From contig JAOPJY010000001.1 in NCBI GenBank assembly GCA_025517425.1, positions 372,001 to 436,000 on the forward strand: 64,000 nt of DNA, written 5' to 3'. Shown here one piece after another: positions 36,340-41,335 of the stretch. This stretch comes from Halobacteria archaeon AArc-dxtr1. Lineage in GTDB: Archaea; Halobacteriota; Halobacteria; Halobacteriales; Natrialbaceae. Under the pieces are notes generated by a model that saw only the letters and a list, made by a program, of their open reading frames with translations, was not told the origin of the DNA and did not search any database. Each line of letters starts with the position of its first letter. Position 1 is the stretch's first letter. The translations under genes and the position numbers were made by a program.

Positions 36340-37494
36340 TTATCGTGTCGAAAGCGGTGCGAACCGACCCGACGCCGCGATCGCGAGGAGGTAACAGGTG
36401 ATTGCGGCGACGATGATCGAGCCTCCGGTCGGAAGGCTTGCGCGCAACGCGAACGCGAATCCAGCGAGGACCGCGAACTGACCGATCAGAATCGAGAGAT
36501 ACAGCGTCTCACGGAAGCTGCGTGCGATCTGCGTGGCGGCGGCCACGGGGATGACGAGCATGCCGGCAACGAGGATCACGCCAAGAATCTGCATGGCACC
36601 AACGACGACGACAGCCGTCATCACGACCAGTAAGGTGTTATATCGGTCGACGTCGAGCCGGGCGACTCTGGCTGCCTGTTCGTCGAACGTGATGAACAGC
36701 AGCTGTTTGTAGCTGAGGACGACGATAGCGACCACGACCACGCTCAGGACAGCCATCAGGCGCGCGCCGCTGGGTGTGACAACCGTGATGTTCCCAAAGA
36801 GGAATGCCTCGATATCGGTGGCAATCGTGGTGACCCCACGCCCCCAGCTGATGAGCAACGTCCCGACGGCGAAGCTCCCGGTCAGAACGATGGCGATTGG
36901 CACGTCGCCGTAGGTCCGGGTTCGATCGGCGAGCCACTGGACGCCGAGCGCTCCAAGGACGGCGACGACGAGCGCGACGAGCAACAGCGAGCCTTCCCAG
37001 CCGGTGACGCCGATGATCAACAGCCCGACGGCGACGCCGGCGAACGCCGTGTGAGCGAGCGTTTCGCCGATCAGCGCCATCTCCCGGTGAACGAGATAGG
37101 AGCCGACTAGTGGCGCGACGACGCCGATGAGCACCCCCGTCGCCACCGACCGCCAGATAAACGGGTGGCGCAAGGCGTCGACTCCCAGCGCGTAGTCGAT
37201 CCATGCACCGGCGATGAGTAGCTGCTCGAACGCGATTCCGGCGGCAGGGTCGAGTCCTGTCGCTGCGTACACCGATTCGATCACTGGATGCGCATCGGCG
37301 TAGGGGTAGAGTCGGAGCCAGTCGAGGGCGAGAAACGCGATCATGACGGCTGCGAGGGCGCCGACGACGGCGAGTCCGAACAGTTCGACGCGTTCTCTGG
37401 TGTCGGTGGTCGGAAACCGACTCGCACGCTGGACGTCGCTTCGATCTGTCTCAGCGATGGGGTCTGAGCCGTCGGCAGTGTCTGTGTCGCTCAT
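36340..37494 (-). CDS. znuB: Zinc/manganese-type ABC transporter permease
   Basis: A 384-residue ABC-3 family permease with about nine hydrophobic helices. The N-terminal extension (~40 residues) is acidic and Thr-rich. The core has 'FIWRSVATGVLIGVVAPLVG' and 'GETLAHTAFAGVAVGLLIIG', where the conserved 'ETLAH' couples to the ATPase, and later 'VVGAMQILGVILVAGMLVIP'. It forms the membrane channel for divalent metal brought by the ZnuA-like protein. Its start ATG 37492-37494 overlaps the ATPase stop (TGATG). The metal could be zinc or manganese; the His-rich partners favour zinc. Confidence 0.9.
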   Translation of the reverse strand: MSDTDTADGSDPIAETDRSDVQRASRFPTTDTRERVELFGLAVVGALAAVMIAFLALDWLRLYPYADAHPVIESVYAATGLDPAAGIAFEQLLIAGAWIDYALGVDALRHPFIWRSVATGVLIGVVAPLVGSYLVHREMALIGETLAHTAFAGVAVGLLIIGVTGWEGSLLLVALVVAVLGALGVQWLADRTRTYGDVPIAIVLTGSFAVGTLLISWGRGVTTIATDIEAFLFGNITVVTPSGARLMAVLSVVVVAIVVLSYKQLLFITFDEQAARVARLDVDRYNTLLVVMTAVVVVGAMQILGVILVAGMLVIPVAAATQIARSFRETLYLSILIGQFAVLAGFAFALRASLPTGGSIIVAAITCYLLAIAASGRFAPLSTR

Positions 37495-38234
37495 CAGTGG
37501 TGGTGGTGGACGACCCGTCCCGCCGCGCCGTAGGCTTCGCTCAAGGCGTCGCTCTCGACGAATGACTCGGTGTCGCCGTGGTGGTACAGTTCCGTGTTGA
37601 TACAGGCTATCCGGTTGGCGCGGTCGGTGACGACGCCGATGTCGTGTTCGATGAGGACGATCGTGATACCGCGCTCGTTTAGCGAGTCGAGGAGTGCATA
37701 AAAGTCGTCTCTGGACTCGGCGTCGACGCCGACGGTCGGCTCGTCTAAGGCGAGCAGGTCGGCCTCCGACGCCAGCGCCCGCGCGATGAACGCCCGCTGG
37801 CGCTGACCGCCAGAGAGGTCGCCGACGCGGCGGTCAGCCAGATTGGTGACGCCGACAGTCTCCATTGCTTCTTCGGCGATCTCGTGGTCTCGTTCGGAGA
37901 GGCGGCCGTAGCCGGTATGGGCGAACCGCCCCATCCGTACGCACTCGCGGACGGTCACCGGCATCGTCTCGCCGCGGCTCGTGGCCTGCTGGGAGACGTA
38001 GCCGATGCGCTCGCCCTGATCGAACTCGTGGATGGGCTCGCCGAAGAGTTCGATCGAGCCCGAGTCTGGCTTGAGTAGACCGAGCATCAGGTGCAACAGC
38101 GTCGTCTTCCCGGAGCCGTTCGGTCCGATCAGGCCCAGGAAGTCGCCGGGCTCGATTTGCAAGGAGACGTCTCTGACGGCGTCGCTGCCGCCGTAGGCGA
38201 ACGATACCTGATCCACGTCGACGACTGCGTTCAC
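37494..38234 (-). CDS. znuC: Metal ABC transporter ATPase with C-terminal His tail
   Basis: A 246-residue ATPase. Walker A 'LIGPNGSGKTTLLHLMLGLL' (~residue 40), Q-loop 'IGYVSQQATSRGETMPVTVR', signature 'DLSGGQRQRAFIARALASEA' and Walker B 'LLALDEPTVGVDAES' are intact. GTG 38232-38234 is chosen because GGAGGGTGA lies seven bases upstream; a GTG at 38337-38339 overlapping the znuA stop would add 35 Asp/Arg-rich residues. The protein ends 'RVVHHHH', a short His tail that could bind metal at the cytoplasmic exit. The stop overlaps the permease start. Confidence 0.88.
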   Translation of the reverse strand: MNAVVDVDQVSFAYGGSDAVRDVSLQIEPGDFLGLIGPNGSGKTTLLHLMLGLLKPDSGSIELFGEPIHEFDQGERIGYVSQQATSRGETMPVTVRECVRMGRFAHTGYGRLSERDHEIAEEAMETVGVTNLADRRVGDLSGGQRQRAFIARALASEADLLALDEPTVGVDAESRDDFYALLDSLNERGITIVLIEHDIGVVTDRANRIACINTELYHHGDTESFVESDALSEAYGAAGRVVHHHH

Positions 38235-38328
38235 GGTCGATTCACCCTCCCCTCTGATGCCGACGGATTTAGTTCTTCCATCTCGCCGCTCGTCAGTTCC
38301 GCCTCGTGGGTCGGTACCGTCATGGTCT

Positions 38329-39711
38329 TCAGTCGGCACGCAGCGCCTGCCGGAGCGACGGGATATTGACTTCTTCCATCTGCTCGATCCAGCCCCAGTC
38401 GTTTTCGTCCCATTCCTCGGTCGTTCCCTCGACCGGTGTCAGCGGCGCGGCTTCGGTCGCATCGGTATCCTCGAGCAACACCTCGACCATCGGCGGATAG
38501 CTGCCGCCGTCGGTATCCTCGAACGGATCGTAGAGGATCGTATCGAGGTCGTTCTCGGAGACGACATCCATCATGTCGGTGATATCGGAAGCGGAAACGT
38601 CCTCGTCCGCAGAGACTCCCGTCGGGGTGTGGAGTTCGAAGTCGTACCGGTGTTCGACGTACTGGAAGGAGTCGTGGCCGGCGAAGACAGCAATATCCGA
38701 CTCGGCGTCGGCCGCAACCGCTTCGAGTTCCTCGTCGACGGTCGCGAGTCGCTCGACGTAATCTGCTGCGTTTTCCTCGTACGTGTCGGCGTTGTCGGGA
38801 TCGATGTCGGCGAGCGCCGCTGCGATCGTCTCGACGACGTCCTGAGCGATGACCGGGTCGACCCAGACGTGTGGATCCGGGGACTGTGGAGCCTCGCTGT
38901 CCTCGAGTTCTTCGACGACGTCGAGCGTGATGTTGTCGTTGCTGGTATCCCAGATCACGTCGCCGTCTGCGACGAGTTCGATGACGACTCGCGTTCGCCC
39001 CTCTTCGGTTGCCTCGAAGACGAGATGGTCGCCCCGGGCGTCGATCTCGACGACCTCGGCCGCGCCGTCGACGATGTAGGCGTCGACCTGGAACTGTTCG
39101 TCCTCGCCCAGCGGAAGCACGTTCCCATCTGCATCTTCGAAGACGGGAACGACGCGGGAAGACTCGTCACGAAGCGTCTCGGGTAGATTTCCGTGCCAGT
39201 GGTCGCCGTGCCAGTAGGCGATTTCCTCGTCGGTGCGTCCGTCATAAAGGTCGAGCCCACCGACCTCTACGGTGTCCGGGTCGAAGTCGTGGTCGTCGTC
39301 CGCCTCGCGGTCGCCGTTTCCACGCCCCATCGGTATCAGATGGTGCTCGAGGCCGGCCATCGCGTCGACGATCTCGACGTGGTCGTAGTCGGCTTCGAGC
39401 GAGGTAGCGGCGTCCTGTGCCCAGCTAAACTCCGGCGTATCGAGGTAGAGGAAGATGCCGGCGTCGGCGATGTTTCGCTGTAAGTCGCCTTCGGGCTCCC
39501 AACCGTGTCCCATTCGACCGGTCGGAACCGGATTCTCGAACTCCATGGCGTCGCCAGAGATTTCTTCGGCCCAATCCCATAGCGCAAAGAACGCGGCGTA
39601 GCCGCTGTCAGGCGTTTCCTCACCAAAGGGGCTGTCGAGGCAGCCGGCGACTGCGCCGAGTGCCATCGCACCGGCGCCGGTCTGGAGTAGTGAACGGCGT
39701 GAGTAATTCAT
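38329..39711 (-). CDS. znuA: Zinc-type ABC substrate-binding lipoprotein with inserted metal-binding domain
   Basis: A 460-residue exported receptor. 'NYSRRSLLQTGAGAMALGAV' is a Tat signal and Cys24 of 'AVAGC' the lipid anchor. ZnuA-type metal residues are His69 ('MGHGWEP'), His123/124 ('GLEHHLIP'), His281 ('DPHVWVDP') and His346 ('FAGHDSFQY'). After a short acidic/His loop (~134-147) there is an extra domain at ~148-268 with 'AYWHGDHWHGNLP', 'VDAYIVDGAAEVVEID' and 'RTRVVIELVADGDVIW'. Ordinary ZnuA lacks this domain, and it matches both repeats of the neighbouring His-rich lipoprotein. The insert spans 38908-39270. First gene of znuA-znuC-znuB. Confidence 0.9.
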   Translation of the reverse strand: MNYSRRSLLQTGAGAMALGAVAGCLDSPFGEETPDSGYAAFFALWDWAEEISGDAMEFENPVPTGRMGHGWEPEGDLQRNIADAGIFLYLDTPEFSWAQDAATSLEADYDHVEIVDAMAGLEHHLIPMGRGNGDREADDDHDFDPDTVEVGGLDLYDGRTDEEIAYWHGDHWHGNLPETLRDESSRVVPVFEDADGNVLPLGEDEQFQVDAYIVDGAAEVVEIDARGDHLVFEATEEGRTRVVIELVADGDVIWDTSNDNITLDVVEELEDSEAPQSPDPHVWVDPVIAQDVVETIAAALADIDPDNADTYEENAADYVERLATVDEELEAVAADAESDIAVFAGHDSFQYVEHRYDFELHTPTGVSADEDVSASDITDMMDVVSENDLDTILYDPFEDTDGGSYPPMVEVLLEDTDATEAAPLTPVEGTTEEWDENDWGWIEQMEEVNIPSLRQALRAD

Positions 39712-39741
39712 ATCAACTCATTCTGCTGGAGTGGGTAAAAG

Positions 39742-39773
39742 CGTTATTATCTAAATTAAGTTTTTTAATAACG
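39742..39773 (-). promoter_or_regulatory. Inverted repeat over the znuA promoter
   Basis: Arms CGTTATTA (39742-39749) and TAATAACG (39766-39773) are perfect complements 16 bases apart. The A/T-rich centre contains a TATA-like sequence (CTTAATTTAG on the minus strand) about 40-50 bases upstream of the znuA start. The arrangement suits a metal-sensing repressor that blocks the TATA box. A related CTTAATTAG stretch lies before the His-rich lipoprotein gene at 40825-40834. Confidence 0.6.
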
Positions 39774-39915
39774 AGTGTTGGTGGACGACATCCCCGCTAG
39801 TAACCGAACCGACGGTTCGAAGGAGTTGCACCACAAGCGGTTGCTCGGAAACACGAACAGTCAAATCGGAGAGAGGCGCAGGACAGCGGTCAGTTACGCG
39901 TCGACTGGAGGCAGA

Positions 39916-40803
39916 TCAGTGGTCGTCGACCGAGATTGCGATCGGTTCGGTCTCCCAGTCAGCGTGGTCGTCGTGCCAGAGCATGAAGACCACTTCCGTC
40001 TCGCCTTCCTCCTCGCCGTGGATGTGGACGTGGTCACCGTGGAAGTCCTCGTCTTCGTCGATCGAGACGATTCCTTCCTCGGCGTCGTCTGCGACTCGGA
40101 CGCCGAGTTCGTACTCCTCGTCGTGACCGATGTGAATCTCGTGTTCGTCGTGGTCGTAGAACTCACCGCCCAGAGAGACGTTGTCGCCGGGGTGGATGTG
40201 GGGCAGTTCGCCGTGCCAGTGGCCGTCGTGGTAGTCGGCAACCTCTTCGTGGGGGTCCTCGGCGCGGTCGAGAATCACCAGTTCGTCGACGTCGTCGCTG
40301 CCGTGATCGTGGTCGTGATCGTGGTCGTCACCGACCTCGACTTCGAGCTCGGGTGACTCGTAGACGACCTCGCCGTCCTCCGTCAGCTGGAAGACGATGT
40401 CGGTAAAGCCCTCCTCCTCGCCGTAGAGGTGGACGTGGTCGCCGTGGAAGTCCTCGTCCGGATCGCTCTCGACGATGCCCTCTTGGGCGCCGTCGGCAAC
40501 GTGGACTTCGAGCTCGATTCCGTCACCGAGTTCGACCGTGTCGCCGTCTTCGTCTTCGACGTCTGCACCCAGTGAAAGGTTGTCGCCGTGTGGGACCAGC
40601 AGCGGATCGCCGTGCCAGTGGTCGCCGTGGACGTAGACCGGGACGCTGTCGTCGTCTCGGTCGATAACCTCGAACTCTTCGACGTCGATATCCTCCGGCT
40701 CGTCTTCGCCACCGAGACAGCCAGCGAGGCCCGCAATCGCGAGTCCGCCCGTCGCAGTGAGCACGTGTCGCCGCGGAACCGTTCGGCGTTCGTTGTTAGA
40801 CAT
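39916..40803 (-). CDS. His-rich lipoprotein with two copies of a ZnuA-insert-like domain
   Basis: A 295-residue exported protein. 'RRTVPRRHVLTATGGLAIAG' is a Tat signal, with lipobox Cys29 ('GLAGC'). Two homologous domains follow: residues ~41-157 and ~172-295, joined by a Asp/His linker ('DDHDHDHDHG'). Each has 'HGDHWHG' or 'DGHWHGELP' near its start, a 'GDNxSLG' turn, 'VADGAQEGIV'/'VADDAEEGIV' and 'DFHGDHVHLYGEEEG' or its variant. It probably binds zinc or a similar ion outside the membrane and passes it to the ZnuA-like protein, whose insert is a third copy. ATG 40801-40803 is chosen over a start seven codons earlier. Confidence 0.85.
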   Translation of the reverse strand: MSNNERRTVPRRHVLTATGGLAIAGLAGCLGGEDEPEDIDVEEFEVIDRDDDSVPVYVHGDHWHGDPLLVPHGDNLSLGADVEDEDGDTVELGDGIELEVHVADGAQEGIVESDPDEDFHGDHVHLYGEEEGFTDIVFQLTEDGEVVYESPELEVEVGDDHDHDHDHGSDDVDELVILDRAEDPHEEVADYHDGHWHGELPHIHPGDNVSLGGEFYDHDEHEIHIGHDEEYELGVRVADDAEEGIVSIDEDEDFHGDHVHIHGEEEGETEVVFMLWHDDHADWETEPIAISVDDH

Positions 40804-40824
40804 CACTCGTTCTTTGGCCCACAT

Positions 40825-40834
40825 TACTAATTAA
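40825..40834 (-). promoter_or_regulatory. TATA-like motif shared with znuA promoter
   Basis: On the minus strand this reads CTTAATTAG, about 25 bases upstream of the lipoprotein start. The same CTTAATT core occupies the middle of the znuA inverted repeat, hinting at joint regulation. Confidence 0.4.
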
Positions 40835-40897
40835 GCCATCGATCTTATTAATGGTGGGCGTGAGTGAGCGCCCTGTCTAGCACGCCGTCGGTTCCAA

Positions 40898-41335
40898 TTA
40901 CGGTGAGCGCGTGCTCGTGTCGTCCGACACCAGCGAAACAGTTGTCTCGACGCCGTCGACGCGCTCGTACGTCTGAGTATCGCCGTCGTCTACAATCGTG
41001 AACACGTCGAGACGGACCACAACGCGTCCGGGCGCGATCGTCGCTCGCAACACCGGGCCGCGACTCGTCACGACGACGTACGGTGGTGACGGGACAGGTG
41101 GTGCCGGCAGCGAGAAGCCGGCCGATTCCACCGTATCTGTCAGCACGGTCGCGAACGCACGCTTGAGCCCTGCCTCCGCGAACACCGCTCGGAGCCGGTT
41201 TCGGAGATCGGCGCCGTCGGAGAGCGGTCGCGCATCTTGAGATGCCACCACGTCTGCACACGCGGCCGTCTCGGCCAGCACCTCAGCGTGTCCATCGAGA
41301 AGTCGGCCCTCGATCGTCGCCTCGATCCCAGTCAC
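40898..41335 (-). CDS. Haloarchaeal protein of unknown function
   Basis: This 145-residue soluble protein has a helical first half ('LLDGHAEVLAETAACADVVA', 'LRAVFAEAGLKRAFATVLTD') and a beta-rich second half ('YVVVTSRGPVLRATIAPGRV', 'VVRLDVFTIVDDGDTQTYER'). It resembles no family I can name with confidence. It starts at GTG 41333-41335, seven bases after the stop of the GAPN-like gene, so it is the last gene of the gap-pgk-GAPN series and may be co-expressed with it. Confidence 0.62.
   Translation of the reverse strand: MTGIEATIEGRLLDGHAEVLAETAACADVVASQDARPLSDGADLRNRLRAVFAEAGLKRAFATVLTDTVESAGFSLPAPPVPSPPYVVVTSRGPVLRATIAPGRVVVRLDVFTIVDDGDTQTYERVDGVETTVSLVSDDTSTRSP

Follow-up and report, generated by a model that had tools for sequence, protein, structure and literature searches.

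Why should a haloarchaeal receptor of the zinc type carry, within its sequence, a block of about 120 residues that occurs twice more in a His-rich lipoprotein encoded beside it? We examined this question in Halobacteria archaeon AArc-dxtr1, in a stretch of 64,000 nucleotides (hereafter, the window) where the genes for a ZnuA-like receptor, its transporter and the lipoprotein lie together on one strand. The features of the locus are reported in Table 1.

The receptor scores 151 bits against PF01297 (cut-off 29), and its stop codon is overlapped by the start of the ZnuC-like ATPase. NCBIfam AztA also matches this ATPase (6e-57), but under the cut-off of that model. In the AlphaFold2 model of the receptor (pLDDT 81.7), the core superimposes on Lmb with a Z score of 29.1 (2.0 Å across 260 residues) and on AztC and AdcA with Z scores of 28–29, leaving the insert as an extra domain. 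The predicted metal ligands, H69, H281, H346 and D395 (three histidines and an aspartate), are contributed by both lobes of the cluster A-I fold and are invariant across 19 homologues. A start of the lipoprotein at 40803 is favoured over one at 40824 by an operator-like site at 40823–40852. Further upstream is a 145-residue open reading frame (window 40898–41335, minus strand), to which no family could be assigned.

Table 1. Features of the receptor–lipoprotein locus, in window coordinates.
Feature	Position	Strand	Basis
ZnuB-like permease	36340..37494	-	PF00950, 1.1e-56
ZnuC-like ATPase	37494..38339	-	PF00005, 2.4e-33
ZnuA-like cluster A-I receptor, 460 aa, Tat lipoprotein signal	38329..39711	-	PF01297, E 4.6e-44
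Inserted domain of receptor, residues about 147-270	38902..39273	-	homology, AF2 model, profile-profile
HGDHWH core motif of insert, residues 168-173	39193..39210	-	conservation in 61 inserts
Operator-like inverted repeat before receptor gene, GTTATTA-N16-TAATAAC	39743..39772		pattern search
Two-domain His-rich Tat lipoprotein, 295 aa	39916..40803	-	Tat signal, lipobox Cys29
Lipoprotein domain 2, residues 169-295	39919..40299	-	homology, AF2 model, profile-profile
HDHDHDHG linker between lipoprotein domains	40300..40323	-	sequence
Lipoprotein domain 1, residues 39-160	40324..40689	-	homology, AF2 model, profile-profile
Operator-like inverted repeat before lipoprotein gene, ATTAATAAGATCGATGGCTTAATTAGTAAT	40823..40852		1 mismatch to RTTAWTA-N16-TAWTAAY

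A preliminary description of the locus, made by eye, had proposed that the lipoprotein contains two homologous domains and that the block in the receptor is a third copy. Both proposals were borne out, and all three segments align with significant similarity. The two halves of the lipoprotein align with each other at z = 23. BLASTP matched the insert to the lipoprotein over receptor residues 144–256 (E 2.2e-12), and phmmer searches with the insert recovered both lipoprotein domains (4e-13 and 6e-12). Smith-Waterman scores of the insert against the two domains were 158 and 163, compared with shuffled means of 39 (z about 16), and none of 2000 shuffles reached the observed scores. A profile–profile comparison of separate sets, comprising ten inserts and ten lipoprotein domains, gave 99.9% (E 4.3e-33) over 118 columns. 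Judged by these sequence comparisons, the homology between insert and lipoprotein is far above chance or composition. The block placed earlier at residues 148–268 is real, its bounds being slightly wider (about 147–270), and the landmarks described for the three copies do align in the same order. The same description had placed this system outside the cytoplasm, which is supported by receptor and lipoprotein both being Tat lipoproteins.

Across 124 domain copies from 81 loci, the tryptophan of the HxDHWH core is the only invariant residue. Among 61 inserts, H168, H171, W172 and H173 are kept in 100, 100, 100 and 90%, respectively. The late histidines (the HGDHVH and HDDH clusters) are mostly gone from the inserts, which have a median of 5 histidines against 10 in other copies, so the loss noted before in this receptor holds for the family. 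The view that the domain has no name and differs from ZinT was likewise supported: no Pfam or NCBIfam family matched the domain copies or could be assigned to the lipoprotein in profile searches, and in these two libraries the ZinT (YodA) family matched neither the lipoprotein nor the domain copies, nor did the polyhistidine triad (Pht) profile match at E ≤ 1. Searches of the open-access literature turned up no account of this insert in haloarchaea. A sequence search of the PDB with the domain profile gave a VP4 protein as its best match (E 0.049), which we judged to be chance.

Structure prediction with AlphaFold2 yielded three separate domains, one for the insert and two for the lipoprotein, that are alike in being all-β with a similar strand order; the linker between the lipoprotein domains has a pLDDT near 50. 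Foldseek matches to the lipoprotein model were Ig-like sandwiches, namely the S-layer proteins SbsC and Sap, LigA, Big_2 and filamin. The domain aligned with Big_2 (7quz) at a Z score of 6.9 (3.1 Å across 86 residues) and with a Sap domain at 7.3, although such Z values are common. The domain is predicted to adopt an Ig-like β-sandwich, a common fold in a family that is itself unnamed. The probable likeness to SbsC, Sap, LigA and Big_2 is one of predicted fold and comes without a sequence match, and the haloarchaeal domain differs in its conserved His/Trp core.

The position of the insert is informative. In 20 insert-less receptors, the region before the DPHVW motif is a His-rich loop with 5–21 histidines per 75 residues (median 13), whereas 55 insert-bearing receptors have, once the domain is set aside, a median of 1 histidine there. 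The domain occupies the exact slot of the His-rich loop. Five receptors (L069 and L096–L099) have both insert and loop, in what looks like an intermediate state. Cluster A-I receptors specific for zinc commonly have a poly-His loop, and in bacteria the flexible His loop of the receptor has been tied to zinc transfer from ZinT and AztD (PMC6689063).

Insert and lipoprotein also go together across genomes, and the link near znu genes is seen in many haloarchaea. A domain protein is encoded directly upstream on the same strand at 37 of 55 insert-bearing loci compared with 1 of 20 insert-less loci (Fisher 9e-7, from counts not corrected for phylogeny). Genome-wide, a separate domain protein is present in 45 of 52 insert-bearing genomes and 1 of 19 insert-less genomes. 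These counts are phylogenetically non-independent, except for two nested reversals. A tree of the receptor core requires at least four changes between the insert and no-insert states, and two pairs of insert-less receptors (L105/L106 and L110/L120) nest with strong support within insert-bearing clades that have two-domain lipoproteins. No domain copy was found anywhere in the four genomes concerned (G071, G039, G024 and G046). Most simply, insert and lipoprotein were lost together twice, and on both occasions the slot came to hold a His loop. A further receptor, L147 (577 residues), has in this slot two tandem His-rich domains of the lipoprotein type joined by an HDHDHD linker. No separate lipoprotein is encoded in the stretch examined around it, and a search of its genome (G148, incomplete at 78%) returned only these two copies. 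This protein is much like a whole lipoprotein inside a receptor, a natural fusion. The joint loss in two lineages and the fusion suggest that insert and lipoprotein act together.

In the domain tree, most inserts fall in one clade (41 rows, support 98/96) and others lie elsewhere; to judge by their length, two rows of that clade labelled 'other' (L149_24 and L144_31) are receptors too. This tree, of 125 columns, tentatively suggests that the same slot was hit by insertion repeatedly. Within the order, 50 of 293 genomes carry the domain, and a sample of 295 genomes drawn from the phylum added just three carriers from outside the order, all in one non-haloarchaeal family. In two of these three, a protein of two domains, anchored in the membrane by its C-terminus (L135:6844-7872 and L137:6597-7610), is encoded between cobalamin-synthesis genes and CbiM of a cobalt ECF transporter, which in one of the two operons is followed by CbiQ and CbiO. 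This placement associates the domain with cobalt uptake as well. The operon at L137 additionally holds a His-rich PGF-CTERM protein. Bacteria were covered by one pattern scan, in which a lone GYWHGDHWH in Poribacteria (L174:7776-8546) proved to lie in an unrelated protein with no further similarity to the domain.

The receptor and lipoprotein genes are each preceded by an operator-like inverted repeat (Table 1). With at least 12 of 14 positions matching, RTTAWTA-N16-TAWTAAY was present upstream of 48 of 55 insert-bearing receptors, all 20 insert-less receptors and 31 of 42 lipoproteins, compared with 1 of 144 znuB/znuC controls. Receptor and lipoprotein are apparently regulated together. The half-sites were 16 nucleotides apart in 40 of 45 pairs. 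Over 61 genomes we counted 83 operator-like sites against 5 for reversed controls. GC-rich CGACGAC words among the upstream 8-mer counts were judged compositional. When one mismatch was allowed, the pattern occurred at six places in the genome of AArc-dxtr1 and its reverse at none. The putative regulon identified through these pattern searches comprises the receptor, the lipoprotein, a rhodanese Tat lipoprotein (L196) and two COG0523/CobW GTPases (L200 and L201; PF02492 and PF07683); the sixth place (L202) has no obvious metal gene.

At L201, the COG0523 gene is divergent from a gene for a NikR_C protein (L201:1565-1975; contig C2 of this genome, about 48.7–49.1 kb), with the operator-like site between them. 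The operator of E. coli NikR, GTATGA-N16-TCATAC, likewise has N16 between its half-sites, the letters of which differ from those of the haloarchaeal half-sites. Because this spacing matches, we infer that the NikR-like protein of L201 is a candidate regulator of the N16 site, and it is possibly zinc-responsive. The genome encodes two further NikR_C proteins. A second NikR-like gene, 4.5 kb from the first, has as neighbours a corrin methylase-like gene and one for a membrane protein rich in histidine.

Other observations concern the members of this set. L200 and L201 are paralogous pairs, each of a COG0523 GTPase and an FAD/NAD-binding oxidoreductase adjoining the operator-like repeat. The repeat at C1:1100256-1100288 precedes the Tat lipoprotein gene L196:420-1469 (minus strand), the product of which fuses an unnamed His/Cys domain (LLAESSVGHIHACSHATFDDRTPL...) to rhodanese. 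This His/Cys domain alternates with the inserted-type domain in surface proteins (L141, L058, L088, L148 and L188), and large surface proteins of 600–1000 residues combine it with one to three copies of the latter.

We consider it probable, with somewhat better than even confidence, that the lipoprotein captures zinc and that the insert hands it over to the receptor for import by ZnuBC. When zinc is scarce, expression of the lipoprotein would go along with that of the receptor–transporter operon. The two His-rich Ig-like domains of the lipoprotein and their HDHDHD linker would gather Zn2+ near the outer face of the membrane. The insert, in the slot that other ZnuA proteins use for zinc capture or chaperone docking by a His loop, would take the metal and pass it to the receptor's own site of three histidines and an aspartate, from which the zinc would be imported by ZnuBC. 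A function of this kind in zinc capture and hand-over is well supported by the genomics. The homology, the Tat signals, the slot, the co-occurrence and co-loss, the fusion and the common operator-like site are observed; from them we infer that the domain binds metal, that this metal is zinc, the direction of transfer and the response to zinc. The preliminary description further held that metal is delivered by homotypic contact between like domains. Such delivery is plausible, but it is the least certain part of the proposal and we would expect it to prove wrong sooner than right. A strict homotypic requirement is disfavoured because 7 of 52 insert-bearing genomes (G035, G093, G052, G104, G087, G066 and G053) have no other domain copy, and because at L116 an insert-less receptor adjoins a domain lipoprotein.

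The same exceptions would fit a different division of labour, in which the insert captures metal for the receptor on its own, as a folded replacement of the His loop, and the lipoprotein buffers or stores zinc separately, with like domains passing no metal directly to each other. In the seven genomes the insert would have to work alone, and at L116 the lipoprotein is paired with a receptor of the other kind; the insert also has few late histidines, so its site may differ from that of the lipoprotein. A storage role has a counterpart in C. diphtheriae ZnuF/ZnuG, which may sequester or store zinc (PMC12445094). We nevertheless regard this reading as rather unlikely, since independent functions sit poorly with the L147 fusion and with two lineages having lost both insert and lipoprotein. 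That the domain might be mainly a structural Ig-like surface module, serving S-layer contact or adhesion as other Ig domains on haloarchaeal cell surfaces do and only incidentally His-rich, is suggested by the Foldseek matches to S-layer, LigA and filamin Ig-like domains and by copies within the 600–1000-residue surface proteins. We find it very hard to credit given the conserved HxDHWH core, the exact replacement of the His loop and the operator-like site held in common with COG0523 genes.

The identity of the metal can be questioned separately. Nickel or cobalt is possible given the NikR-like regulator, encoded beside a copy of the operator-like site, and the link of two-domain relatives to CbiM in a cobalt operon among cobalamin genes; the COG0523/CobW genes of the putative regulon point the same way. 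Against this, the receptor belongs to cluster A-I, has a Zn/Mn-type site of three histidines and an aspartate and is closest to AdcA, Lmb and AztC, and in its homologues without an insert one finds the poly-His loop typical of cluster A-I receptors for zinc (PMC6689063). A nickel or cobalt system is therefore improbable. Returning to zinc hand-over from lipoprotein to receptor, a fuller version would hold that this is an Ig-like relay to a homologue within the receptor, that it arose independently of the corynebacterial system, that the module has also been reused for cobalt uptake in another archaeal family and that NikR-like control serves zinc. We offer this combination tentatively, and hold it doubtful as a whole.

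The corynebacterial system provides a close precedent for the domain-in-receptor architecture. ZnuA of C. diphtheriae has the ligands H63, H317 and H383, the first two of which are separated by a large insertion (PMC12445094) that we estimate from the ligand numbers at about 170 residues relative to ordinary receptors. It carries an HxD/HxH motif, of which its neighbours ZnuE, ZnuF and ZnuG have one or two, and zinc binding has been shown for ZnuE and ZnuF (PMC12445094). In the haloarchaeal system as in ZnuAECB-FG with CmrA/CmrA2 of C. diphtheriae, a cluster A-I receptor with an insertion carrying a known or putative zinc motif is accompanied by surface neighbours with one or two copies. The corynebacterial ZnuA, dip0438, is annotated as being of the anchored-repeat type (PMC6711530), and the haloarchaeal receptor, with one domain inside it and repeats of that domain next door, shares its architecture. 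The zinc/Zur regulon of C. diphtheriae includes a GTP-binding protein (PMC6711530), and the putative haloarchaeal regulon, with a transporter, predicted extracellular zinc proteins and a GTP-binding protein, parallels it. The two differ in motif (HxDHWH plus GDHVH, compared with HxD and HxH about 150 residues apart), in anchoring (Tat lipoproteins, compared with sortase or transmembrane anchors) and in regulator (a NikR-like candidate, compared with Zur). With E ≤ 1 as the limit, TIGR03769, the repeat itself, matched nothing here and none of 36 domain copies, and we rejected membership of this repeat on sequence. TIGR03772 ('anchored repeat ABC transporter, substrate-binding protein') reached 47 bits on the receptor, over the core only, against a cut-off of 350. 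A plasmid search with an actinobacterial motif found nothing. As TIGR03769 does not match, the likeness is in working: by analogy, the haloarchaeal system would work like ZnuAECB-FG, and we do not claim membership by homology.

Two other bacterial arrangements bear comparison. AztD, like the lipoprotein, is a partner protein outside the cytoplasm whose gene accompanies that of a cluster A-I receptor, AztC, and transfer between them depends on the flexible loop of the receptor (PMC6689063). AztD is a β-propeller (PMC6689063), whereas the haloarchaeal domain has about 120 residues, a predicted Ig-like sandwich fold and a copy in the receptor as well. In ZinT–ZnuA and in AdcA, a ZnuA–ZinT fusion, an accessory zinc domain is likewise either free or fused to the receptor, and the His loop is involved. 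In AdcA, however, the ZinT domain is added at the C-terminus, while the haloarchaeal domain is inserted within the receptor.

Extracellular metal capture and hand-over to ABC receptors have hardly been studied in archaea. The natural controls found here, namely receptors with an insert or a His loop, two cases of reversal, one fused protein and a putative regulon of small size, make protein-to-protein zinc transfer testable by haloarchaeal genetics, with a candidate zinc-limitation regulon and a candidate regulator on offer. The corynebacterial parallel suggests that putting a metal-trap domain where a His loop would otherwise lie is a recurrent solution.

The domain also occurs in some minimal, orphan single-domain lipoproteins, with no obvious metal transporter among their neighbours, which counts against zinc hand-over. 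Divergent single-domain lipoproteins (L193:1082-1651, L150 and L152) have the motif HW(H)...SHWHF. The first of these adjoins an Fe2+-transport-like lipoprotein (PF10634, DUF7350), a DUF7405 protein and a DsbD-like membrane protein, a neighbourhood perhaps concerned with copper or iron handling.
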